Assembly: GCA_018606725.1 (NCBI GenBank) | Contig: JAGYID010000026.1 | Coordinates: 1 to 33,467 of the forward strand | Source of the DNA: Acidobacteriota bacterium | Lineage (GTDB): Bacteria; Acidobacteriota; Polarisedimenticolia; Gp22-AA2 | Reading direction: 5' to 3' | DNA length: 33,467 bases | Shown here: positions 1,668 to 25,194 of the stretch, one piece after another | Layout: every line of letters starts with the position of its first letter | Position numbering within the stretch: the first letter of the stretch is position 1 | Notes under the pieces: generated by a model | Told to the model about the DNA's origin: nothing | Databases searched by the model: none | The model's input: only the letters and a program-made list of their open reading frames with translations | Program-made: the position numbers and the translations under genes

Positions 1668-3032
<1,365 letters not shown>

Positions 3033-3075
3033 CGGCTCGACCCGGGGAATGGAGCGGCGGCGCGGACGGCCGTCA

Positions 3076-3555
<480 letters not shown>

Positions 3556-3684
3556 GCGGGTCCTCCCTGCTGGGCCGCGGCGGCGCGTCCGCGCCGACCG
3601 CGTTCGGCGCCCTGGCCGGGCGCTATGCTACCCCAAAAGTTCATCCACCGGGGGCCGGGCGGGTCCGCCGGCGCTCCGAGAGCT

Positions 3685-4041
3685 TTACGCAAGGGCCTGC
3701 TGCAGTTCCTGCCCCGCCCGCCAGGCTTCGTACCGCGCCCGGCCGGGGATGCAGTCGGGGCCGACGACCAGCACCAGATAATAGTCCGCCCCGAGAGACC
3801 TCAGGACGGTCAGCCCGACGCGGCTCTGGACCGAAATCTCCTCCGGCGGTCCGGCCCCCTGGTCGCGCAGCGACCCGAGGGCCCGTTTCACCAGACCGAT
3901 TCCCTCGGCGGACGCGAGATCGAGATTGATGCGCCCCTCGTCCGCCGCGGCGCGCTCCACCGTGATGCCGTCGAGCCCGACGACCGCCGCCCCGAGGGAC
4001 CCCGGGGTGCGATCGAGCGCGTCCTGCAGGATCCGCTTCAT
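3685..4041 (-). CDS. Roadblock/LC7-domain protein
   Basis: This 118-residue protein is essentially one roadblock/LC7 fold: an N-terminal helix (residues 1-12), a strand with GAAVVGLDGI, a central helix, then VGLTVLRSLGADYYLVLVVGPD and a C-terminal helix. MglB and related proteins of this fold regulate small Ras-like GTPases that set cell polarity and pilus placement. No MglA-type GTPase is encoded in the window, so a GAP role is only a possibility. Its start overlaps the stop of the TPR gene as ATGA (4038-4041), implying that the two proteins are made together and may interact. Confidence 0.8.
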   Translation of the reverse strand: MKRILQDALDRTPGSLGAAVVGLDGITVERAAADEGRINLDLASAEGIGLVKRALGSLRDQGAGPPEEISVQSRVGLTVLRSLGADYYLVLVVGPDCIPGRARYEAWRAGQELQQALA

Positions 4042-5198
4042 CGGGACGCCGCCTTGCCCGAACGGTCCGCCTGTACGGAGTTCAGGAAGCGGCGCAGTCG
4101 CTCGAGCCGCTCCGCATTCGGCCCCGAGGCCGCGCCGGGGACCGGGGCCGGCACGCCGCTCTGGAGCGTCCCGGCCGGGGCGGCCGCCACGGGGCTCACC
4201 GCCGGCGCGGCGACCGGCATGGGGAGCGCGGGCGGCACGGGGGGCCGCCCGGCGGACGATGCCATCGCTGTCGGTGGGGATTCTCTCGTGAAGGCGTTGC
4301 CCCCGAGCTCCTGCAACCGCCGAAGGATGCGATCGTTCTCCGGGTCGAGGCGCAGCATGGCGCCGTAGACCTCGATCGCCTTGTCGACCAGACCCTGTCG
4401 CAGGTACAGCTCCGCCAGGGTGTTCGTCTGCAGCTCGTCCGCCAGGCCCTCTTCCGCCGCGGCAACCGCTGGCTTCGCCGCGGCCCGTGTGGCCGGCGGC
4501 GCCGGCAGACCGAGGTCCTCGAAACTGTAGTCAAACGATGGCTCGCTGACTCCTGTGCCCGTGATCGCGGCGGGCGGCGGCGCCGGCGCCGCCGCAGGGG
4601 GCGGCATCGCCGCGGCAGCAGGCCGTGGCGTCGGCCGTGGCGCGGCGATCGGAGCAGCAGGCGCTCTCGGCGCTGCGGGCGCCACCGCAGCAACCGGCGG
4701 CGCCGGAACGGGAGCCGTACGCTGCGGTTGCGGCGACGGAGCCTGGACCTGGGACGCGGTCGGCGCCGCCGGAGACGGGGCCGGCCTGGTCAGGTCGCGC
4801 AGCAGGGCCTCGATCTCCTTGTCGGCCGGGTAATGGCGCAGGATGGTGCGGTAGGTCTCCGCCGCCCCCTGCGTGTCGCCGATCTTGCGCTGCACCTCGG
4901 CGAGCAGCCGTCCGGCGAGATGGTTCTCCGGCGCCATCTCGAGCACCTCCGCGAGCGCCCGGCGGGCGGCGTCGAGATTGCCGGCCTCGAGGTACGTGCG
5001 CCCGAGGGCGATGCGGGCGGTGTGATAGGTCGGATGCCTGGCCAGGCCGTCGAGGCAGACCTGCACCGCGTCCTCGAAGCGGCCGGTCTTGCGATATTCC
5101 TCGGCGAGCTGCAGGAACGCCCGGGAGAAGGGGTCCTTGGCGACCTTCTCCTTGAGCGATTCGATTGCCGGGTTTCGCTGGGGCGACGGGCGAGCCAT
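4038..5198 (-). CDS. TPR-repeat protein with Pro/Ala-rich linkers
   Basis: This is a 386-residue soluble protein with no signal peptide. TPR-like helical repeats occupy roughly residues 15-135 (motifs such as GRFEDAVQVCLDGLARHP and GNLDAARRALAEVLEMAP). A low-complexity Ala/Pro linker of about 90 residues follows, then a further TPR unit around 245-300 (LAELYLRQGLVDKAIEVYG), then another Pro/Ala stretch and a basic tail. It is probably a scaffold. Translational overlap with the roadblock gene suggests a complex. It is the first gene of the operon, about 50 bases downstream of a consensus promoter. No strong Shine-Dalgarno sequence lies before the ATG. Confidence 0.82.
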   Translation of the reverse strand: MARPSPQRNPAIESLKEKVAKDPFSRAFLQLAEEYRKTGRFEDAVQVCLDGLARHPTYHTARIALGRTYLEAGNLDAARRALAEVLEMAPENHLAGRLLAEVQRKIGDTQGAAETYRTILRHYPADKEIEALLRDLTRPAPSPAAPTASQVQAPSPQPQRTAPVPAPPVAAVAPAAPRAPAAPIAAPRPTPRPAAAAMPPPAAAPAPPPAAITGTGVSEPSFDYSFEDLGLPAPPATRAAAKPAVAAAEEGLADELQTNTLAELYLRQGLVDKAIEVYGAMLRLDPENDRILRRLQELGGNAFTRESPPTAMASSAGRPPVPPALPMPVAAPAVSPVAAAPAGTLQSGVPAPVPGAASGPNAERLERLRRFLNSVQADRSGKAASR

Positions 5199-5253
5199 CT
5201 GTTAAGTGACTGAGCCTCTTGGGTTAAGCGAGCGCCTCGCAGCCAACGCCGCG

Positions 5254-5283
5254 ATTATAGGCGCGCCCTCAAACTGTTGTCAA
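5254..5283 (-). promoter_or_regulatory. Consensus sigma-70-type promoter for the TPR-roadblock-accBC-aroK operon
   Basis: On the minus strand, a perfect TTGACA (5278-5283) and a perfect TATAAT (5254-5259) are separated by 18 bases. Transcription should begin near 5247, giving a leader of about 50 bases. The -35 box overlaps the T-tract of the upstream terminator. Confidence 0.85.
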
Positions 5284-5317
5284 AAGCAAAACGCCCCCGG
5301 CGCGGGCGCCGGGGGCG
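5281..5317 (-). terminator. Intrinsic terminator of the pilMNOPQ-lipoprotein operon
   Basis: A perfect 12-base inverted repeat (5292-5303 with 5306-5317) has a two-base centre. Read on the minus strand it is followed by TTTTGCTTTTG (5281-5291). It lies 21 bases after the lipoprotein stop codon and is the only textbook intrinsic terminator in the window. Confidence 0.9.
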
Positions 5318-5338
5318 CAGCAATGCAAAGCCACCGCT

Positions 5339-5827
5339 CTACGGCGTGACGGACCACGCCAGGTTGGCGTCGAAGGAGATCGGCCGTCCATTCGTGATGT
5401 CCCGGCCATCGTAGTGCGTGCTCATGGCGTAGGTGACTCCGGCGACCCTCGCGCCGGACGGGAGCACATCCAGAAGGATCTCATTGTCCTGGGACGGACA
5501 ATAGAACTGGACCGTGTTCGGCAGGATGGCGCCCGACAGAGGGGGGAAATTCGCCGAGAAGAAGCCGCTGTCGAACTGGACCTGCGCCTTCGAAACCGCG
5601 GCGGTGTCGCCGATGGTGTCGCCCCGGAAGTTCAGATCGAACTTGATATGGGCGACGACGTCCTCGGCGTCGGCGAGGCTGGTGCCGGTGTAGGTGATCG
5701 ACGTGATCTGGACGTACGCGTCGGCGATCCTCGGGTCGTCGCCGAGGTCGTTGCAGGAACTCCCGCCGAGCAGCAGGGCGAAGGCCGCCAGGGCGGCGAT
5801 CAGCGCGTTTCTCTTGTGGCTCCTCAT
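5339..5827 (-). CDS. Putative lipoprotein encoded with the secretin PilQ
   Basis: This 162-residue protein has a lipoprotein-type signal: a basic N-terminus, a hydrophobic core LIAALAAFALLLGG, then SSC, with the modified cysteine at about residue 26. The mature part is predicted to be mostly beta strand (YVQITSITYTG, VVAHIKFDLNFRG) with no domain I recognise. It has no TPR repeats, so it is not a PilF/PilW-type pilotin. Its start overlaps the pilQ stop as ATGA (5824-5827) and it is the last gene before the terminator. That linkage suggests a role at the secretin or the outer membrane; this is inference. Confidence 0.78.
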   Translation of the reverse strand: MRSHKRNALIAALAAFALLLGGSSCNDLGDDPRIADAYVQITSITYTGTSLADAEDVVAHIKFDLNFRGDTIGDTAAVSKAQVQFDSGFFSANFPPLSGAILPNTVQFYCPSQDNEILLDVLPSGARVAGVTYAMSTHYDGRDITNGRPISFDANLAWSVTP

Positions 5828-8493
5828 CGTCCCTCCAGGACCTCAGCCTTCTTGGAGATTCTCGGCGTGAGGAAGATCAGCAATTCCGTGTTCTGCCGGG
5901 TGATGTTCTTGTTCTTGAACAGCCAGCCGATGCCCGGGATCTTCGACAGCCCCGGCACCGACTGCTGCGACACGGCGTCGTTGATCTTGAAGATCCCGCC
6001 GATGACCGCCGTGCCGCCGTCGGCGACCAGGATCTGGGTCTGCGCCCGCTCGGTATTGATCGGCGGCACGTCGCCGACCCGGTTGACGAAGTCGGGCGAA
6101 GAGTTGTCGACCGACACGTCCATGATCACCGTCCCCTCCTTGGTGATCTGCGGGGTCACCGCCAGCTTCAGCGACGCCGAGATGAACTCGACGTTGATCT
6201 GCGTCGCGGTGGTGCTGACCACCGGGATCTGGGTGCCCTGCTCGATGGTGGCCCGCTGGTTGTTCTGCGTGGCGATGCGCGGCGACGACAGGATCTTCAC
6301 GTCGCCGTTGAGCTCGAAGGCGTCGAGCGTGGCGTCGAGGTTGAACGAATCGAGCACGTTCCCGAGGCTCAGGGTCAGCCGCCCGGCGCTGGCCGCGGCC
6401 GGGACGTCGACGTCCGAGTCGAGGCTGATCCGGTGCGGAAACTTCATCCCGGTCTGGGTGCCGTGCGCCGCGTCCCAGCGGCTGTGGGTGCGCCAGGTCA
6501 CGCCCAGGTCGCGCTCGAACGCGCGGTCGGTCTCGACGATGCGCGCCTCGATGACCACCTGGGGCGTCTGCTCGTCGAGAGTGTCGATGAGCCTGTTGAT
6601 CGCCTCCTGGCGGTCCCGGAGATCGGTGATGATCAGCGTGTTGGTGCGGTCATCCATGATCACGTCGCCGCGCTTGGACATGATCTTCTTGGCGATCGGC
6701 GCCACGTCCTTGGCCTTGGCGTAGGAGAGGCTGCGGGTGAAGGTGATCGGCTCCTCCTCCAGCTCCTTCGCCTCGATGAGGGCCTTGCGCGACGCCGCCT
6801 CGGACGCCAGTTTCTGGGTGGTGGCGATGCGGATGACGTTGTTCTCGAACACCTTGTCCAGGCCGTTGTTCTTCAGGATGATGTCGAGCGCCTGATCCTC
6901 CGGAACGTTCTCCAGGACGATGGTCAGGGTGCCCGCCACCGCCGGATCGAGGACGATGTTGTAGCCGGTGATCTCGTGGAACAGCCGAAATACATCCTTA
7001 AGGTCGGCATCCTTGAAGTTCAGCGAGATCCGCTTGCCGGTGTATTTCGGACCGTTGTCGGAGATCGACTTGGTCCCGTACCGGTTGGGCGCTGCGTTGA
7101 TCATGACGCCCTGGGACCGGCTGCGCGGCGACGGCTTGAAGACCACTTCGCCGGGCTGCTCGATCTTGACGTCCCCCTGGGCCAGCAGCGGGTTGTCCTG
7201 CGACAGGCCCGTTTGCTTCGCCTCGGCCTCGGCGGCCGGGGCCGGCTCGGCTGGCGCGGGCTGCGATTCGGCGGCGGCCACCGGCGCCGACGACTCGGCC
7301 GCGGCCGTTTCGGTCGAAGGCGCCTGCGCTGCCGGCGCCTCCGCCGCGAGCGGCGCGGCGATCGCCTGGCCCGCCGGGGCGGCCTCCTGCGCGTGTCGCA
7401 CCGCTTCCTCGGAGAAGTCGACGACCAGTCCGTCGTCGGTCGGGACGATGGCGTACGGCCGCGGCGCGCTCAGGTCCAGCACGACGCGCACCACCGGCTC
7501 CGGCCGGGTGGCGAACTGGGCGACGCGGACCCGCGTCAGGATGTCGGATGCCACGCTCACGGTCTTCACCTTGGTGCGGTCGAGCACGCCGGGCAGATCG
7601 ATGACCAGGCGCGGCGGGTTCTTGAGCTCGAAGTGCTCGTTGTTGAGACCGCCATCGGCGGTCAGCACCACGGCGCGATCCGGATCGGTGCCGCGCGCCT
7701 CGACGCCGAGCAGCGACTTGGCGAGGGAGCCGCCGACCGCGGCACCGCGGCTCACGTTGACCGGCGAGGGCTTCGACGAGGCGGCGACCGCCGACGGCTG
7801 CTCCGCCGCCGGGGCCGACGCGGATGCGGTCGCCGGCATTTCCTTCAGTTCCTGGGCCGCGGCCATCTCGCCGGCCGGCGCGGCGCCGGGCTCCGGGGTC
7901 GCGGGCTTCGCCGCGCTCGCCGCCTGGCCGGTGCTGTCGACCGGCTCGAGGGGAGCGCCCTCGGCGGATGTCTCGGTCGATGGCGTCGTCCCGGTCGCGG
8001 CGGCGTCGCCGGCGGGGGCGGCTTCGGCCAGGACGTTCTCGGCCGGCGCGTTGGCGGTGTCCCCGAGAGTCGGGAAATCGATGACCAGGTCATGGCCGTC
8101 CAGTCGGATGGTGTGCTGCGACGCGGCGATGTTGTTGAACTCGAACTTGGCGATCTTGCCGCCGTCGACGCTTTCGACCGCCGAGACGCGGACCCCCTCC
8201 ACCTGGGGCGTCCCGATGCGCACCTCCTGGGCCAGGTTTTCGACGTGCACGTCGAGGAGCTCGAGGACGAGGGTCGCCGGATCGGGCTGGTAGGAGGTGT
8301 AGCTGAACGGATAGTTGCCGTGCAGGATCACCTCCGTGCCGGCCGGCGTCGCCGCATGGTCGATGCCGTTGATCACCACCGCCGACGGCGCATTGAGCAC
8401 GGCCTGTCCCGGCTCGCTGACGGGCGGATTGCCCGAACAGCGCACGGTGGCCGCGGCGATGAGGAGCAGACTCGCGACCTGCCCGTACCTCAT
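5824..8493 (-). CDS. pilQ: Type IV pilus secretin PilQ
   Basis: This 889-residue protein forms the outer-membrane channel through which the type IV pilus emerges. In order it has a hydrophobic export signal, a first AMIN domain (about 40-150) that binds peptidoglycan, an Ala/Pro/Glu-rich linker, a second AMIN domain (about 260-370), a second linker, an STN domain (about 475-560, starting ISLNFKDADLKDVFRLF), a secretin N domain (about 585-655) and the secretin core with VPPINTERAQTQILVADGG and a GLSKIPGIGWLFK segment. A cysteine follows the signal, but an arginine precedes it, so lipidation is doubtful. It overlaps pilP by ATGA (8490-8493). Confidence 0.96.
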   Translation of the reverse strand: MRYGQVASLLLIAAATVRCSGNPPVSEPGQAVLNAPSAVVINGIDHAATPAGTEVILHGNYPFSYTSYQPDPATLVLELLDVHVENLAQEVRIGTPQVEGVRVSAVESVDGGKIAKFEFNNIAASQHTIRLDGHDLVIDFPTLGDTANAPAENVLAEAAPAGDAAATGTTPSTETSAEGAPLEPVDSTGQAASAAKPATPEPGAAPAGEMAAAQELKEMPATASASAPAAEQPSAVAASSKPSPVNVSRGAAVGGSLAKSLLGVEARGTDPDRAVVLTADGGLNNEHFELKNPPRLVIDLPGVLDRTKVKTVSVASDILTRVRVAQFATRPEPVVRVVLDLSAPRPYAIVPTDDGLVVDFSEEAVRHAQEAAPAGQAIAAPLAAEAPAAQAPSTETAAAESSAPVAAAESQPAPAEPAPAAEAEAKQTGLSQDNPLLAQGDVKIEQPGEVVFKPSPRSRSQGVMINAAPNRYGTKSISDNGPKYTGKRISLNFKDADLKDVFRLFHEITGYNIVLDPAVAGTLTIVLENVPEDQALDIILKNNGLDKVFENNVIRIATTQKLASEAASRKALIEAKELEEEPITFTRSLSYAKAKDVAPIAKKIMSKRGDVIMDDRTNTLIITDLRDRQEAINRLIDTLDEQTPQVVIEARIVETDRAFERDLGVTWRTHSRWDAAHGTQTGMKFPHRISLDSDVDVPAAASAGRLTLSLGNVLDSFNLDATLDAFELNGDVKILSSPRIATQNNQRATIEQGTQIPVVSTTATQINVEFISASLKLAVTPQITKEGTVIMDVSVDNSSPDFVNRVGDVPPINTERAQTQILVADGGTAVIGGIFKINDAVSQQSVPGLSKIPGIGWLFKNKNITRQNTELLIFLTPRISKKAEVLEGR

Positions 8494-19370: not shown

Positions 19371-20714
19371 CTACTTCAGCAGGGCGATGCTCTCCTGAAT
19401 TTCCTTCGAGTCGGGAGCCTTCGGGTCGAGCTTCAGGTATTCCTGGAACGCCTTGAGGGCACCGGGGAAATCCTGCGTTGCCATCAGGGCGTAGCCGAGC
19501 TGCCGGTGCGACGCCGGATAGGTGGGATCGATTTCGATCGACTTGCGGAAGGCCTGCACCGCTTCCTTCGGCCGGTTCTGGTTCTGCGCCTTGGCCCCGA
19601 TGTTGTAGAAGAGGATGGCGGCGTTCTTCGGATCGACGGCCTTGATCCGCTCGTACATCTCATCGCGCTTGACGGGGTCCTTCTTCTCCTCGTAGATCGC
19701 CGCCATCAGCATCAGGGGGTCCGGCTTGCTGGGGTCGAGGGCGGCCGACTTCTCGAGCGCTGCGATCGCCTTGTCGGGATTGCCGGCCTTGGACTCGGCC
19801 TCGCCGAGCTTGAAGGTGACGTTCGAGGAGTCGGGGGAGAACTGCATCTCCTTCTCATATTCGGCGGCCGCGTCGGCCGCCCTCTCCCCCCGCAGGGCGA
19901 TGTTGCCCAGGTAGAAGTGCGCGCCCTTCATGTCGGGCTTGAGCTCGAGCCCCTTGCGCAGGGCCTGGTCGGCGCCACCATCGTCGTTCATCTCGTAGAG
20001 GCTCTTGCCGAGGTAGTAGTACACCGCCGGGTTGCCGGTCGCATCCTTGACCAGGTAGGACTGGTACAGCTTCACCGCCTCCTCGTACCGGCCGGCGTCG
20101 GTGAGGGCCTTCGCCTGCTCCAGCATCTCCTTGCCGCCCGCGACCGTCCCGGGCGCCGCGGCCCCGGCGGGAGCGCTGCCGGTTCCCGGCGCCGGCACGC
20201 CGGCCGGCGCGCCCCCCGCCACGGAGTCGCCGCGCTTGCGCCGCTCCTCGTCCACGGCGGCGTTGTACTCCGCCTCCTTCGCCATGACGAAGTCGACGAC
20301 GTTCCGGCCGAGGTCGCCGACGAGCGCGAACTTCAAGTCCGGGAAGTTGTCCTGCTTGCTGCTGATCAAGATGTCGCGCTTTTCGACCTGGTTTCCTTCC
20401 GAGTCGACGATCTCGTAGCTGATCTTGACCGCTTTGTAACCGGCCAGCTCGGGGATGATGCGCCACTGACGGACGATCGACACATCGAGCGTCGCGTAGA
20501 GATACGACCCGTCCTTCTTGGTCGGGAGGGGGGCCAGCTTCTTGTTGATATCGACCCCCTCGAAGTGGAGTTTCACTTTCTCGAGCGGCTTGCCGTGGTT
20601 GTCCACGACCTTGCCCTTGATCCGGGTGATGCCCTCGGCGAGCGCCGGCCGCGCCGGCGCGGCGAGAAACAAGGCGACGGCGAGCAACGGCATCACGCGC
20701 GCAATTCGTCTCAT
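19371..20714 (-). CDS. Secreted protein with carboxypeptidase-regulatory-like domain and TPR repeats
   Basis: This 447-residue protein has a signal peptide (residues 1-27, ending ARPALA). A beta-sandwich of the carboxypeptidase-regulatory type follows (about 28-110, beginning ITRIKGKVVDNHGKPLEKVKL), then a coil with a Gly/Ala/Pro linker (about 130-165). At least seven TPR units fill the rest (about 168-447), such as GRYEEAVKLYQSYL and NRPKEAVQAFRKSIEIDP. It is probably periplasmic and scaffolds a complex or binds polysaccharide or peptide; no enzymatic motif is visible. The ATG at 20714 has GGGAGG upstream and gives the correct signal peptide. It stands alone, with its own promoter. Confidence 0.85.
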   Translation of the reverse strand: MRRIARVMPLLAVALFLAAPARPALAEGITRIKGKVVDNHGKPLEKVKLHFEGVDINKKLAPLPTKKDGSYLYATLDVSIVRQWRIIPELAGYKAVKISYEIVDSEGNQVEKRDILISSKQDNFPDLKFALVGDLGRNVVDFVMAKEAEYNAAVDEERRKRGDSVAGGAPAGVPAPGTGSAPAGAAAPGTVAGGKEMLEQAKALTDAGRYEEAVKLYQSYLVKDATGNPAVYYYLGKSLYEMNDDGGADQALRKGLELKPDMKGAHFYLGNIALRGERAADAAAEYEKEMQFSPDSSNVTFKLGEAESKAGNPDKAIAALEKSAALDPSKPDPLMLMAAIYEEKKDPVKRDEMYERIKAVDPKNAAILFYNIGAKAQNQNRPKEAVQAFRKSIEIDPTYPASHRQLGYALMATQDFPGALKAFQEYLKLDPKAPDSKEIQESIALLK

Positions 20715-20769
20715 GGCAGCCTCCCTCGGTGGCGGGTCTCGAGGACCCGGGCGCGATGATCGACACGCG

Positions 20770-20798
20770 AGTCTATACCGGCCCCCGGGGCCGATCAA
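20770..20798 (-). promoter_or_regulatory. Promoter of the 447-residue TPR protein, with a palindrome in the spacer
   Basis: Minus-strand TTGATC (20793-20798) and TAGACT (20770-20775) are 17 bases apart. A perfect 6-1-6 GC palindrome, GGCCCCCGGGGCC (20780-20792), fills most of the spacer and could be an operator. Confidence 0.55.
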
Positions 20799-20823
20799 GG
20801 CACCGCCTTCGGGGCGCGAGCTC

Positions 20824-21309
20824 TCAGGAGGCGCGCCGTCGGGCGGCGCGCCGACCGGAGCGGACCCGGGATGCGCCGTTGCGCGACCGGCGGATCCACC
20901 CCACGCCGGCGTGGGCGGCGAACAGCAGGACAAACAGTCCCCCGGTGACGAGATGGATGATCACCAGCGTCCGTCGAACCGTCGTCCCGGTCACCACCTG
21001 GATCAGGTACCCCGATGCGATCATCGGCAGCGCCGGCAGCACCGTCATCGCCCCAGAAGAGCGCGCCGGGTGGGGTGCCTTGTCCCGGTATCCCTCGATG
21101 ACGTGGCCGCGCGCGATCAGCCCGAGCGCGAACACCAGAATCGGTCCCGCCAGGACGTGCAACGCCAGCATCTGCGGCTGCCAGGGATGATGCAGCGCCG
21201 AGAACGGGTCGCTCCCCTGCATCACGGACTTCATCCAGAAATAGACGACGCCCGAGGCGGCCGTCAGCCACGTGCCGGCGTGCAGCAGGGCCGCCTCGGC
21301 GCGGCTCAT
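20824..21309 (-). CDS. Four-helix membrane protein, cytochrome b-like, of the flavin redox operon
   Basis: This 161-residue integral membrane protein has four predicted helices (about 8-26, 46-66, 88-107 and 115-135). Histidines in helix 1 (His10), helix 2 (His51) and helix 4 (His119, His133) are spaced as expected for two b-type hemes. The loop after helix 1 reads DPFSALHHPWQP. The layout resembles the cytochrome b561/DUF4405-like proteins found next to FMN-binding-domain proteins; family membership is from memory, not search. It would pass electrons across the membrane to the flavoprotein encoded just before it (ATGA overlap at 21306-21309). The tail after helix 4 is strongly basic, so the C-terminus should be cytoplasmic. 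Confidence 0.75.
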   Translation of the reverse strand: MSRAEAALLHAGTWLTAASGVVYFWMKSVMQGSDPFSALHHPWQPQMLALHVLAGPILVFALGLIARGHVIEGYRDKAPHPARSSGAMTVLPALPMIASGYLIQVVTGTTVRRTLVIIHLVTGGLFVLLFAAHAGVGWIRRSRNGASRVRSGRRAARRRAS

Positions 21310-21944
21310 GGTGTGCGCGCCGGCCCCGGTCCCGATCCGGGAGAGCCCGCCGGGCCGGCGCCCGCCGGCATCGGGGTCGCGGCGGCGCCCGCGGGCTCGA
21401 CCGCGGCGACGAACAGTCGATGCAGGGCCAGGACGCGCCGCGCCGCCTGGGTCACCGCGCGGGCCGACAGCGTCGCGCCGGTCAGCGTGCGAATGCCCCG
21501 GCCGAGCGCCAGGTCGTCGTCCAGCCGGCGCCCGGGGAACTGCTCCCGCCAGCGATCCTTCGGGAAGTAATCGTCCGGCTCGTCGAACGACAGGATGTCG
21601 ATGCGCCGGATCCGATCATCGGGCCCGATGACGATCATGACCGACTCCGGCAGCGTGCGGACCAGGTGCGTGTCGAAGTAGGCATACCCCAGGATCGCCC
21701 CGTTCGCCGAGGCGCCGGTGGAGGCGACGTAATACGTCACGACGCGGCTGTCGACCGGCACCTCCGCCAGCGCGGCGGCGCGCCGCACTTGATCCGGATC
21801 GAGATACAGCGTCCGCCGCTCCACCGCCGCCGGCGGGGGGAACGCCGCCCGCAGCGCCTGTTGTTGATCCATGAGAACCCGGGCCGTGGCCGGCGCCGGC
21901 GGCAGCGCCAGGAGGACCGCGATCATGCAGGTCCGGCGGCGCAT
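21306..21944 (-). CDS. FMN-binding-domain protein with covalent flavinylation motif
   Basis: This is a 212-residue exported protein with a signal peptide (about 1-22). It carries a single FMN-bind domain (about 80-175) like the soluble parts of NqrC and RnfG. The flavinylation motif LTGATLS places the predicted FMN-carrying threonine at residue 158. A DEPDDYFPKDRW segment before it and GRGIRTLTGATLSARAV match the family pattern. The C-terminal 35 residues are Ala/Gly/Pro-rich. The flavin would be attached by the ApbE encoded two genes upstream. Its ATG at 21944 shares one base with the porin stop, and its stop overlaps the cytochrome-like gene as ATGA. Confidence 0.88.
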   Translation of the reverse strand: MRRRTCMIAVLLALPPAPATARVLMDQQQALRAAFPPPAAVERRTLYLDPDQVRRAAALAEVPVDSRVVTYYVASTGASANGAILGYAYFDTHLVRTLPESVMIVIGPDDRIRRIDILSFDEPDDYFPKDRWREQFPGRRLDDDLALGRGIRTLTGATLSARAVTQAARRVLALHRLFVAAVEPAGAAATPMPAGAGPAGSPGSGPGPARTP

Positions 21945-23383
21945 CAGAACAGGTAGCCGAGCGCGAAGTTGAAGCGATCGACGCCCGTGCCGGCGGTATT
22001 GCCGAAATCCTGGAAATCGAACTTCAGGGCGATGGCCGGGATCGGTTTCCAGGAGATCCCCAGCGTGCGCACTGTCCTGTCGTTGGCGCGGTCGGCGGCC
22101 GGCGAACCGGCTTCGGTCTCCTTCTGGGTGTCGAGCGACTCGAAACGGGCGAACGGGCTCAGTTCGCTGCCCGCGCCCCTGCGCCGCGCCAGGAGGTTGT
22201 AGCCGACCTCGGCGTAGTAACCGACGGCGACCGAGCCGACGGCCTCTACGACCGATTGGCTGACCGCGGCGGCCTCGTCGAGCGTGCCCTGCGCATACAG
22301 GGCGCGCAGATGCAGACCGCGCCAGTTCCATTGCCCATGGACGTCCCAGAGGGTCGTCCGGGCACCCCCGAGCGCCGGATCGGCCTGCCCGCTGTCGCCG
22401 GTCCAGGCCGAGGCGCCCAGGAGCAGGCCGATGACCGGGGTGACGTCGAGCCGCCCGGTCAGGGCGAAGTCGGCCGCCGTCACCTCGGCTCCCTCCTGCC
22501 GCCCTCCACGGATCCACCCGGCGCCGCTGAATCCGGAGGCATCGAGGCCGGTGACCAGGTAGGCGCGCCAGGAGAGGCGCCGCGTCTCGCCGTAGATGCC
22601 GCCGCCCAGCTCGCGCCAGGTGGTCGGGATGATGAAGCGCTCGACCTCGGGGCGGGTGGCGCCGAGGAAGATCGGCGGCTCGTGAAGCTCGTTGATGAAC
22701 CCGAGCGGCACCAGCACCAGCCCGCCGCGCACCCCGAGCGCCTTGGTGGCCCGGTAGTCGATGTACGCGAACTCCACGGCGACCTCGCCGGGCTCCCCGT
22801 CCCCGGCCACCGCGTGCTCGAATTCGATCTCGGAGTTGAACACGAAGCGGTCGTCGAATTTGTAGCCGAAGTAGAGCACCGCCCGCAGGAAATCGGCGCG
22901 ATCGGTCGCGAAGTCGGGATCGACGGCGGACGAGCGCGAGCCGTCGTCGGCCGTCTGATTGAAGTTCTGGTACAGCAGCTCGCCGTAGCCGCCGATCGAG
23001 ACGCCCGGTTTCGCCGCGTAGACCTTCGAGGCCGCCGGACCGAAGCCGAGCGCGGAGCCCCCGGCCGGCGGTCCGGCCGCCGCCCCGAGCCTCAGTCTCT
23101 CCACCTCCGCGGACAGCGCGTCGATTTTCGCTTCCAGCCCGGCGACGGCCTGCGCCGGCCCCGACGGGACCGGCCCGCCGGCCCGCAGCGCCGCGAGCTC
23201 CGCGCGCAGCGCCGCGATCTGGGCCTCGAGGACTGCCAGGCGCTGCTCCATCGATCGGTCGGATGTCTCGGCGGCGCTGGCGGCGGCCGGCGCCGCGACG
23301 AGGAACACGGCGGCGAGAACCGCCGCGAGCGCCCGGGCGGCGATCCCCCGCGTCAGGCTGTTCCCCGGTTCGATGCGACTCAT
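21944..23383 (-). CDS. Outer-membrane porin with N-terminal coiled coil
   Basis: This 479-residue protein has a signal peptide (about 1-38, ending SAAE). A heptad-rich coiled coil follows (about 43-110, MEQRLAVLEAQIAALRAELAAL and GLEAKIDALSAEVERL), then a beta-barrel of about 330 residues ending in a terminal phenylalanine (FALGYLF), the usual signal for barrel assembly. Parts such as VFNSEIEFEHA and RGGLVLVPLGFINELHEPP resemble phosphate-selective porin O/P-like proteins. The coiled coil would lie in the periplasm and could trimerise the porin or bind the wall. Its start overlaps the apbE stop as ATGA (23380-23383). It may admit or release the substrate of the redox module. Confidence 0.83.
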   Translation of the reverse strand: MSRIEPGNSLTRGIAARALAAVLAAVFLVAAPAAASAAETSDRSMEQRLAVLEAQIAALRAELAALRAGGPVPSGPAQAVAGLEAKIDALSAEVERLRLGAAAGPPAGGSALGFGPAASKVYAAKPGVSIGGYGELLYQNFNQTADDGSRSSAVDPDFATDRADFLRAVLYFGYKFDDRFVFNSEIEFEHAVAGDGEPGEVAVEFAYIDYRATKALGVRGGLVLVPLGFINELHEPPIFLGATRPEVERFIIPTTWRELGGGIYGETRRLSWRAYLVTGLDASGFSGAGWIRGGRQEGAEVTAADFALTGRLDVTPVIGLLLGASAWTGDSGQADPALGGARTTLWDVHGQWNWRGLHLRALYAQGTLDEAAAVSQSVVEAVGSVAVGYYAEVGYNLLARRRGAGSELSPFARFESLDTQKETEAGSPAADRANDRTVRTLGISWKPIPAIALKFDFQDFGNTAGTGVDRFNFALGYLF

Positions 23384-24489
23384 GGTGTCCTCCCTTCGGC
23401 GGCCGGGCCGCCCTCCGAAAACGCCGGAAAGTTCCGGCTCAACCGGCGCACCGCGGTCCCGTCCGCGGCGGGCCACTGATACAGGACCCCGATGCCATGC
23501 TGCTCCGCCCAGGGGAGCCCCCTGTCAGGTCCCATGACGAAGAGCGCCGTCGACAGGGCGTCGGCGGCGGTGGCGTCCGGGGCCAGCACGGTGACCGTCC
23601 CCGCGTATCCGGCCGGCGCGCCGCGGGCCGGATCGAGGATGTGCCCCAGGCCGTCCGGGCCACTGCGTTCGCCGTTCCCCGAGCTCGCCAGAGACGAGCC
23701 GCGTAGGACAATCCACAAGGCGGCGCTGTCGCGGTCACCGGGGCCGGCGATGCCGACCGGCCAGGCGCCGCCCGGGCCGGAACCGGTTGCCAGGACCTGA
23801 CCGCCGAAGTCCAGCAGCGCCGCGCGAATGGCGCGCTCACCGAGGACCCGGGCGGCGGCGTCCAGGGCGATCCCCTTGCCGATCCCGCCGAGGTCGATGC
23901 CAACCCCGGGGGCATCGAACCGGATGGAGCGGGTGAGGGGATCCAGATGAAGATGCTGCCAGCCGACGGGCCCGTCGTTTGGTCGGTCCGCAGGCGCGGC
24001 GGCGCCGGAGCCGGCGAGGCCCTGGCGCGCCGGCTCCAGGCGCCCCTCATCGCCGCGCAGCCCGAAGCGCCTGACCAGCGGTTCGACGGTGGGATCGAAC
24101 GCGCCTCCCGTCATTTCAGCCCAGTGCCGCGCGGCGCTCACCGCGACGAACAGATCGTCCGAGCAACGCACCGTGCCATCGGCCGCCGCCCGGTTGAGGC
24201 GCGACAGCTCGCTGTCGGAATCCCAGTTGCTCAGCACCCGCTCGAGACGCGCCACCTCGGCGAAGGCCTGATCGAAGACCTCATCCGCGACGGCGCCGGG
24301 GAGCGTCACCACCAGCCGCGTGCCCATCAGGAAACGTGCCCGGGTGGTCGTCGGGGCGGCGAGGCTCGGAGCCGGCGTGGCCGTGACGGCCCGGGGCGCC
24401 GCGCCTGCCGTCACCATGGCTTTCGCCGCGGCGAGCGCGGTCAGCGCAACGAGTCCGGCCAACAGTGCGGCTGCGGAGCGTTCGCGCAT
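23380..24489 (-). CDS. apbE: FAD:protein FMN transferase
   Basis: This 369-residue exported enzyme splits FAD and links FMN through a phosphoester to a threonine or serine of target proteins. An N-terminal hydrophobic signal (about 5-25) is followed by the ApbE core starting RARFLMGTRLVVTLPG. FDPTVEPLVRRFG (about 131-143), VGIDLGGIGKGIALD (196-210), DFGGQVLATG, LGHILDP (Asp286) and the metal-site segment ATAADALSTALFVMG (about 307-320) are all present, so it should be active. The target is presumably the FMN-bind protein of the same operon. It is the first gene of the operon, behind a promoter with a Fur-like box. Confidence 0.95.
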   Translation of the reverse strand: MRERSAAALLAGLVALTALAAAKAMVTAGAAPRAVTATPAPSLAAPTTTRARFLMGTRLVVTLPGAVADEVFDQAFAEVARLERVLSNWDSDSELSRLNRAAADGTVRCSDDLFVAVSAARHWAEMTGGAFDPTVEPLVRRFGLRGDEGRLEPARQGLAGSGAAAPADRPNDGPVGWQHLHLDPLTRSIRFDAPGVGIDLGGIGKGIALDAAARVLGERAIRAALLDFGGQVLATGSGPGGAWPVGIAGPGDRDSAALWIVLRGSSLASSGNGERSGPDGLGHILDPARGAPAGYAGTVTVLAPDATAADALSTALFVMGPDRGLPWAEQHGIGVLYQWPAADGTAVRRLSRNFPAFSEGGPAAEGRTP

Positions 24490-24508
24490 CCGGGGATCCC
24501 CTCGAGTG

Positions 24509-24533
24509 ATTGTGATTGCGACTCAATCTCAAT
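24509..24533 (-). promoter_or_regulatory. fur box: Fur-like operator upstream of apbE
   Basis: This 25-base dyad is centred on 24521. On the plus strand it reads ATTGTG ATTGCG A CTCAAT CTCAAT, the 6-6-1-6-6 hexamer architecture of Fur sites, with only two mismatches between arms. It begins about five bases after the predicted transcription start, so a bound repressor would block initiation. The assignment to Fur rather than another Fur-family regulator is inference. Confidence 0.65.
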
Positions 24534-24544
24534 TAGACGGGCGC

Positions 24545-24574
24545 ACTCTAGCCCACGCATTCGCGCCCTGTCAA
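24545..24574 (-). promoter_or_regulatory. Promoter of the apbE-porin-FMN-bind-cytochrome operon
   Basis: A perfect minus-strand TTGACA (24569-24574) lies 18 bases from TAGAGT (24545-24550), the same -10 hexamer as rpmB. The start is expected near 24538, giving a leader of about 50 bases that contains the Fur-like dyad. Confidence 0.65.
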
Positions 24575-24642
24575 GAGCCCGCAATCACCGCCCCCTCCGG
24601 GCATGTGCCCTTCTCCTCTCGGAACGCCGTCGTTCCCGGGTG

Positions 24643-24651
24643 TGGTAGGCT
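24643..24651 (+). promoter_or_regulatory. Extended -10 element of the thioesterase gene
   Basis: The sequence TGGTAGGCT has the hexamer TAGGCT (24646-24651) with a TGn extension. No good -35 is visible. The leader would be about 40 bases, with GGAGAG just before the ATG at 24697. Confidence 0.35.
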
Positions 24652-24696
24652 GCGCCCCGCCGGGCCGCGACGCCGGCCGGCATCCGGAGAGCCACC

Positions 24697-25194
24697 ATGA
24701 ACCGCCGTCCGCCGTCGAAATCGGCGCGCGCCTCGCGCGTCGAGATGACCGAGATCGTCCTCCCTCAGGATACCAACCAGTACGGTCACGCCTGGGGGGG
24801 CCGCGTCATGGCGCTCATCGACAAGGCCGCGGCGATCGCCGCCACGCGGCACGGCCGCACGAACGTGGTGACCGCCTCGGTCGATTCCCTCACCTTCCGG
24901 GCACCGGTGCGCCAAGGACACATCCTCAAGCTCTACGCCTCGGTCAACGCCGCGTTCCGCACCTCGATGGAGGTGGGCGTCAAGGTGCTGTCCGAGGATC
25001 CACTCTCCGGGCGGCAGGCGCACTGCTGCACCGCCTACGTGACCATGGTGGCGCTCGACGCCAACGCGCAGCCGACGCCGGTGCCGCGCCTGCTCCCGGA
25101 CGGCCGCGACGCGCGCCGCCGCCAGCGTGAGGCCCTGGAACGCCGGCGGGCGAGGCTGCGGCAAAGGGAGCGCAAGGCGCGCCGTCCGGCCTGA
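24697..25194 (+). CDS. Acyl-CoA thioesterase, hotdog fold (YciA/BACH-like)
   Basis: This is a 165-residue cytoplasmic protein with one hotdog domain (about 14-130). The signature LPQDTNQYGHAWGGRVMALID (about 22-42), containing the conserved Asp/Asn and Gly-rich helix cap, and the TASVDSLTFRAPVRQGHIL strand identify the acyl-CoA hydrolase family. It would cleave acyl-CoA to free acid and CoA; chain length cannot be predicted. The last 30 residues are a very basic Arg-rich helix, unusual for the family, and may bind nucleic acid or membrane. The histidine kinase gene follows after 87 bases. Confidence 0.88.
   Translation: MNRRPPSKSARASRVEMTEIVLPQDTNQYGHAWGGRVMALIDKAAAIAATRHGRTNVVTASVDSLTFRAPVRQGHILKLYASVNAAFRTSMEVGVKVLSEDPLSGRQAHCCTAYVTMVALDANAQPTPVPRLLPDGRDARRRQREALERRRARLRQRERKARRPA

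Follow-up and report, generated by a model that had tools for sequence, protein, structure and literature searches.

Here we describe a four-gene operon of an Acidobacteriota bacterium (GenBank assembly GCA_018606725.1) that probably serves iron uptake of the FTR1/Fet type as its redox arm in the periplasm and outer membrane and would be expressed when iron is scarce. The operon lies on a 33,467-nucleotide (nt) stretch of DNA, the window, which is the entire contig JAGYID010000026.1 (C16) of a 3.74-Mb genome that is 95 % complete. It encodes an ApbE flavin transferase, a porin, an FMN_bind flavoprotein candidate and a four-helix membrane protein. We read this cassette as the redox and outer-membrane arm because its genes, for a flavoprotein with the enzyme that matures it, a putative membrane electron donor and a porin, stand under the same operator as an FTR1 core encoded elsewhere in the genome.

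The gene sets, the operator, their conservation and, as models, the folds were computed directly. The genes and control elements of the operon, with the basis for each assignment, are the following:

23380 to 24489, minus strand: apbE, periplasmic flavin adenine dinucleotide (FAD):protein flavin mononucleotide (FMN) transferase of 369 aa (P0004); Pfam PF02424, motifs, sole ApbE of the genome.
21944 to 23383, minus strand: outer-membrane porin of 479 aa (P0003); AlphaFold model, structural matches to OprO/OprP, Porin_O_P matches in homologs.
21306 to 21944, minus strand: periplasmic FMN_bind protein of 212 aa with a signal sequence (P0002); PF04205, sole FMN_bind of the genome.
20824 to 21309, minus strand: four-helix membrane protein of 161 aa (P0001), a putative diheme b-type cytochrome; invariant histidines, model, PF01292 in some homologs.
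24545 to 24574, minus strand: promoter with TTGACA (24574-24569), an 18-nt spacer and TAGAGT (24550-24545); promoter-pattern scan.
24509 to 24533, minus strand: Fur-type operator, a 25-bp imperfect palindrome ATTGAGATTGAGTCGCAATCACAAT containing the 15-mer TGAGATTGAGTCGCA (24531-24517); consensus match, second genomic copy.

All four open reading frames were found, and the neighbours overlap by 4, 1 and 4 nt in the order apbE, porin, FMN_bind and four-helix protein, so that the contiguous, gapless arrangement claimed in an earlier note on this DNA holds. The TTGACA-N18-TAGAGT element is the sole promoter-like site on both strands of positions 20700-24720 (shuffle mean 0.1), the operator palindrome follows directly downstream of it, and the same promoter layout is repeated upstream of the cassette in five related loci (L054, L056, L057, L058 and L061).

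The connection to iron starts at this operator. Its 15-mer matches 11 of the 14 positions of the Fur consensus, a level that none of 100 shuffles reached. Upstream of the cassettes, a Fur box of the 7-1-7 type with at least 11 of 14 matches was found in 39 of 61 loci, as against 2.1 % of random windows from the same loci, the 61 loci being related and their counts therefore not 61 independent events. The box is perfect in four loci (L008 from Planctomycetota, L060, L065 and L084). In 13 loci the cassette has a Fur-family gene as its neighbour, with the family confirmed in those sampled. Within the genome itself, a search allowing up to three mismatches located the operator in two real places only, the window operon and positions 30111-30128 of contig C4, where it lies directly upstream of a Fur-family gene. 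The two promoters are built alike, with TTGACA, a -10 element and the palindrome. By sequence, the window operon thus shows the marks of a Fur regulon member, namely a conserved Fur-type operator and a Fur protein encoded in the genome. The operon behind the second operator is:

L123 (contig C4 of the same genome), 2705 to 8066, minus strand: fur, then an FTR1/FtrD-like fusion, two genes for FtsX permeases and one for an ABC ATPase, all on one strand; same operator as the window operon.

Iron genes also accompany the cassette in its relatives. In L071 and L075 fur and apbE are separated by an FTR1 gene, and in L076 apbE is preceded on its own strand by a FeoB-like open reading frame (assigned by eye) and a probable DtxR/FeoA fusion gene. 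Two loci carry a multicopper oxidase gene inside the operon, between porin and FMN_bind (L130:8457-10022 and L132:8442-9926), and a copy in Methylocystis is flanked by multicopper oxidases and a ferritin-like protein. The iron link that these sequences suggest is strong. The earlier note had recognised the Fur-like operator and proposed metal reduction or acquisition from its combination with these genes; the operator turns out to be conserved upstream of relatives' cassettes and, since it is common to an FTR1 operon, the proposal narrows to iron uptake. ModB/ModC-like genes adjoining L077 were taken as chance neighbours.

Three further observations concern these loci. The palindrome upstream of the cassette in L063, L064 and L068 reads TGCGAAnnnTTCGCA rather than TGAGAATnATTCTCA, and the adjacent Fur-family protein is there of a divergent subgroup, pointing to a joint change of regulator and operator. 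The ABC ATPase of the C4 operon ends in an Fe_dep_repr_C domain, so that a transporter is joined to an iron sensor in an uncommon way. The porin of L132 is duplicated or split.

The Fet system has as its core an FTR1-FtsX-FtsX-ABC operon that includes a DUF2318/FtrD-type domain (PMC10783030, PMC6083913), and operons of this composition also resemble the Sif/Bfe systems of Bifidobacterium (PMC5449479). Every core component shared by Campylobacter jejuni FetMP-FetABCDEF and Bifidobacterium SifABCDE-BfeUO, that is FTR1, DUF2318/FtrD, two FtsX and the ATPase, is present in the C4 operon. Such systems also need periplasmic redox proteins, which are thioredoxins in most Proteobacteria and FMN-binding proteins in several other phyla (PMC6083913, PMC5449479), the latter replacing thioredoxin in FTR1-linked Fet/Sif clusters (PMC6083913, PMC5449479, PMC8238504). 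The present case differs in that a separate operon, unlinked to FTR1 but sharing its operator, supplies the FMN protein together with an ApbE, a membrane cytochrome and a porin that are dedicated to it. We rejected the window operon alone as a member of the Fet systems, FTR1, FtsX and the ATPase being in the unlinked C4 operon.

The conservation of the four genes across genomes, which the earlier note had proposed as a check, was searched for and proved to be that of a module. Of 297 Acidobacteriota genomes, 89 encode a relative of the FMN_bind protein, and metagenome-assembled genomes (MAGs) of Elusimicrobia and Planctomycetota have further ones. Many soil and sediment bacteria carry the genes as a group. 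The genes are kept together in about 60 loci from Acidobacteriota, Planctomycetota, one elusimicrobial MAG and proteobacterial plasmids. Porin, FMN_bind and cytochrome are linked in nearly all loci examined, with apbE before them, after them or elsewhere. On plasmids of Ideonella dechloratans, Methylocystis heyeri and a Bradyrhizobium the order is porin-FMN_bind-apbE-cytochrome. One acidobacterial genome (G252, locus L145) has its cassette in this order of the plasmid copies, which suggests horizontal transfer. Directly downstream of the window cassette, on the minus strand from 19371 to about 20715, is a gene for a secreted TPR-like-repeat protein, which adjoins 11 related loci too and is without evident iron link.

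Five loci have the porin and the FMN_bind protein without the cytochrome, and in all five its slot is filled by members of another, mutually related family:

L005, 6529-7089; L087, 5100-5855; L091, 3828-4448; L127, 239-1492; L138, 8292-8963: second membrane family, with an invariant TH-x-H and one more invariant His.

This family, which has no confident Pfam assignment, is unrelated to the cytochrome family that it replaces in some lineages. The exchange speaks for a functional partnership between the fourth gene and the flavoprotein. Two loci (L089 and L090) were set aside, their distant FMN_bind proteins adjoining a NapH/NosR-type gene as judged by eye, and so were porin-only matches on Manganitrophus plasmids, which have no annotated FMN-binding or ApbE neighbour.

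The ApbE of the window is canonical by sequence. It matches PF02424 with an E-value of 3.5e-61 (207.5 bits against a cut-off of 25.6), and its motifs are intact, as the earlier note had said: DFGGQ, GHILDP and ATAADALST align with the solved ApbEs 1vrm and 7esa. The FMN_bind protein passes PF04205 narrowly, at 24.3 bits against a cut-off of 22. The whole genome holds exactly one domain of each kind, both in this operon, and enzyme and substrate therefore hardly have other partners. The candidate attachment site is:

21471 to 21491, minus strand: flavinylation motif RTLTGAT, residues 152-158, with the Thr158 codon at 21471-21473; region G156/A157/T158 conserved in 42 homologs.

The proposed site LTGATLS with Thr158 is thus present, but the Asp that usually belongs to the motif is absent, and the canonical D-x-x-[ST]-G-A-[ST] is not matched. 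The remainder, [ST/A]-G-A-[TS], is kept in the FMN_bind homologs, and the position of Thr158 is Thr in 36 of the 42 and Ser in the other six.

The four-helix protein P0001 has no meaningful Pfam match, including to PF01292 and PF14358 (DUF4405). Among 40 homologs, 11 match the cytochrome b561-like family PF01292 weakly (best 8.8e-6) and seven match DUF4405 weakly. Its model is a bundle of four transmembrane helices with a predicted local distance difference test score (pLDDT) of 94. The top structural matches in VIA-align are mostly diheme b-type proteins, among them the designed 4D2, cytochrome b6, the cytochromes b of hydrogenase and formate dehydrogenase, and superoxide oxidase, at Z values too low to settle a helical bundle by themselves. 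A sequence profile found no match in the PDB, and Foldseek with the model returned nothing at E < 0.001. Five histidines are invariant across the 40 homologs, and only H51, H69, H119 and H133 once proteobacterial homologs are added; they form two pairs (H51/H69 and H119/H133) on two transmembrane helices. By the positive-inside count, the N terminus, loop 2 and the C terminus are cytoplasmic, and with this topology H51 and H119 would bind a heme on the periplasmic side and H69 and H133 one on the cytoplasmic side:

21157 to 21159, minus strand: His51 codon, proposed periplasmic-side heme ligand, partner His119 (20953-20955); invariance, with the membrane side from the positive-inside count.
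21103 to 21105, minus strand: His69 codon, proposed cytoplasmic-side heme ligand, partner His133 (20911-20913); invariance.

The histidines are therefore placed for two hemes, as had been predicted, in a bundle that resembles diheme cytochromes in the model. We infer the two b-hemes mainly from the invariance of these residues, the structural matches being weak. Since P0001 has no nucleotide-binding domain, quinol is its likely electron donor.

For the second gene, a model with pLDDT 88 bears out the predicted porin. P0003 has a signal sequence, a periplasmic coiled coil at about residues 42-102 and a 16-strand beta-barrel at residues 127-479, best matched by OprO/OprP (Z 26.6, 3.1-3.3 A over about 308 residues) and less well by DcaP (Z 22.7). 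P0003 itself has no meaningful Pfam match, PF07396 (Porin_O_P) included, whereas PF07396 matches seven of 41 homologs (best 5.8e-7); the only matches of its sequence profile in the PDB are coiled coils. The protein is well conserved among homologs. In residues 182-190 (FNSEIEFEH) every second position of one predicted strand is an invariant Glu (E185, E187 and E189); the three would face one side and perhaps line the pore with an acidic stripe where OprP has its arginine ladder.

From these parts we propose the following mechanism for the periplasmic and outer-membrane arm. The OprP-like porin would let ferric iron or small ferric chelates into the periplasm. ApbE would attach FMN to Thr158 of the FMN_bind protein, to whose flavin the four-helix protein would pass electrons from the quinol pool by way of its cytoplasmic-side (H69/H133) and periplasmic-side (H51/H119) b-hemes, and the flavin at Thr158 would then reduce Fe(III). 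Import would follow through the FTR1-type permease in the lineage of the window and through FeoB in lineages that have it; where a multicopper oxidase is present, the Fe(II) may be oxidised again before FTR1 takes it up, in the manner of the yeast Fre-Fet3-Ftr1 pathway. A fuller version, which we offer tentatively, makes the system the bacterial equivalent of reductive iron uptake in yeast: a dedicated porin independent of TonB would admit inorganic or weakly chelated Fe(III), a diheme cytochrome fed by quinol would reduce it together with a covalent flavoprotein, FTR1 would import it, in some lineages with a multicopper oxidase, and ApbE would be adapted to an Arg/His motif.

Several observations weigh against this interpretation. 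At the motif's Asp position (-6) the 42 homologs have Arg in 31, His in nine, Pro in two and Asp in none, and at position -3 ten of them have Ala. The Asp is described as strictly conserved (PMC12052999); flavinylation at Thr158 nevertheless remains likely, given that its replacement by Ala had only a minor effect in a model enzyme (PMC12052999), and the cognate ApbE may have shifted its specificity toward motifs containing Arg, His or Pro. The proteobacterial plasmid copies have no recognisable Fur box, nor has one acidobacterial genus (L069, L070, L072 and L128); the proteobacterial copies hence differ in regulation and perhaps in role. Across the phylum, the cassette is not associated with FeoB, which is found in 61 of 81 genomes with the cassette versus 162 of 216 without it (p = 1, 297 genomes). 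Searches of the window's genome gave no FeoB, Nramp or ZIP, and the importer of reduced iron is consequently uncertain, with FTR1 alone to fill the role. FTR1-type uptake, moreover, is in most cases coupled to the oxidation of ferrous iron (PMC11966278), and electrons could then run in the reverse direction.

The absent co-occurrence over the 297 genomes ruled out FeoB as an obligatory partner. In the order to which the window belongs (families f1 and f2), the cassette is present in 11 of 11 sampled genomes and FeoB_C in none of the 11, compared with 223 of 297 for the phylum. The FeoB_N matches in the genome of the window were judged to be other GTPases by the absence of FeoB_C.

With the reverse direction, the flavoprotein would take electrons from the oxidation of periplasmic Fe(II) and hand them to the diheme cytochrome and on to quinone, so that FTR1 receives Fe(III). 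The coupling of FTR1-type permeases to Fe(II) oxidation (PMC11966278) fits this, as do the operator common to both operons and the FTR1 genes linked in L071 and L075. Production of Fe(II), however, is the better match for the FeoB-like gene linked in L076 and for FeoB in 61 of 81 cassette genomes, and for the oxidation two of the operons already include a multicopper oxidase. Covalent FMN and b-hemes, besides, are usually of low redox potential, and we consider inward flow unlikely.

Less likely again is a cassette that responds to iron without handling it, quinol electrons going to another periplasmic acceptor (disulfides, methionine sulfoxide, or an organic or metal respiratory acceptor) and the genes being induced at low iron. 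The cassette encodes no iron-binding protein or siderophore receptor, its porin fold is like those of OprO/OprP and DcaP, and such roles are known for other flavinylated systems (PMC8238504). A chain that uses heme, on the other hand, spares no iron; the operator is common only to an iron-uptake operon, and FTR1, FeoB and fur are linked in relatives. A dedicated, well-conserved porin encoded together with a flavoprotein and a quinol-linked cytochrome might also recall extracellular electron transfer, the coiled-coil porin and the flavoprotein forming a mineral-reducing conduit, a flavin version of porin-cytochrome conduits. This seems very improbable: the porin is modelled as an ordinary OprP-like small-solute porin, the flavoprotein has just one small domain, and control by iron limitation is the opposite of what an Fe(III)-respiring system needs. 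Of these possibilities we thus prefer the reductive arm of an FTR1/Fet-type system, with the heme, the covalent FMN, the substrate, the direction of the electrons and the joint action of the two operons being what we infer. All parts of the earlier note's interpretation that computation could check were borne out.

Other known systems share parts of this design. Clusters of PepSY, DUF2271 and ApbE, which are Fur-repressed in Shewanella and Caulobacter, likewise combine a flavinylated periplasmic protein, ApbE, a transmembrane b-type cytochrome and iron control (PMC8238504, PMC3751524), but the proteins of the window have no PepSY, DUF2271 or DUF4198, their four-helix protein is without a Pfam assignment, and their operon includes a porin. 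A Pfam search of the four proteins also found none of the marker transmembrane domains of the NapH, MsrQ, PepSY, DsbD and NQR/RNF kinds. The DUF4405/FezC cytochromes are small heme-binding membrane proteins with conserved histidines, encoded beside apbE or iron storage genes (PMC10979944). They have six transmembrane helices, in contrast to four in P0001. For FrcB, the diheme ferric reductase of Bradyrhizobium, we know of no flavoprotein or porin partner. As far as its description in a citing paper goes (PMC10760861), FrcB is a diheme membrane protein under iron control, as P0001 is proposed to be. The yeast Fre1-Fet3-Ftr1 pathway unites a heme/flavin ferric reductase, a multicopper oxidase and FTR1, whose counterparts would here be divided among the cassette, L130/L132 and the C4 operon; unlike it, the window system would have a separate extracytosolic covalent flavin and no NADPH domain, in a Gram-negative envelope with a porin. 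The relationship is one of analogy rather than homology, FTR1 excepted.

Flavinylated proteins in iron assimilation are already known (PMC8238504). For the four-gene set with a porin and this cytochrome family, no description was found in the literature accessible to our search, in agreement with the earlier note, which knew of no function for it, and a porin is not mentioned in the flavinylation surveys of 2021 and 2024. The outer-membrane route of the C. jejuni Fet system has been called unidentified (PMC10783030), and for Bradyrhizobium the means by which inorganic ferric iron is reduced in the periplasm have been described as unknown (PMC10760861). The cassette is a concrete four-gene candidate for both. 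It is spread over a large soil phylum with few genetic systems, and the plasmid copies in culturable Proteobacteria (Ideonella, Methylocystis and Bradyrhizobium) make it testable. Flavin-based electron transfer gains two unannotated membrane families and a variant flavinylation motif. If true, the yeast-like reading would supply both an outer-membrane route and a ferric reductase for systems of the Fet/Sif type.

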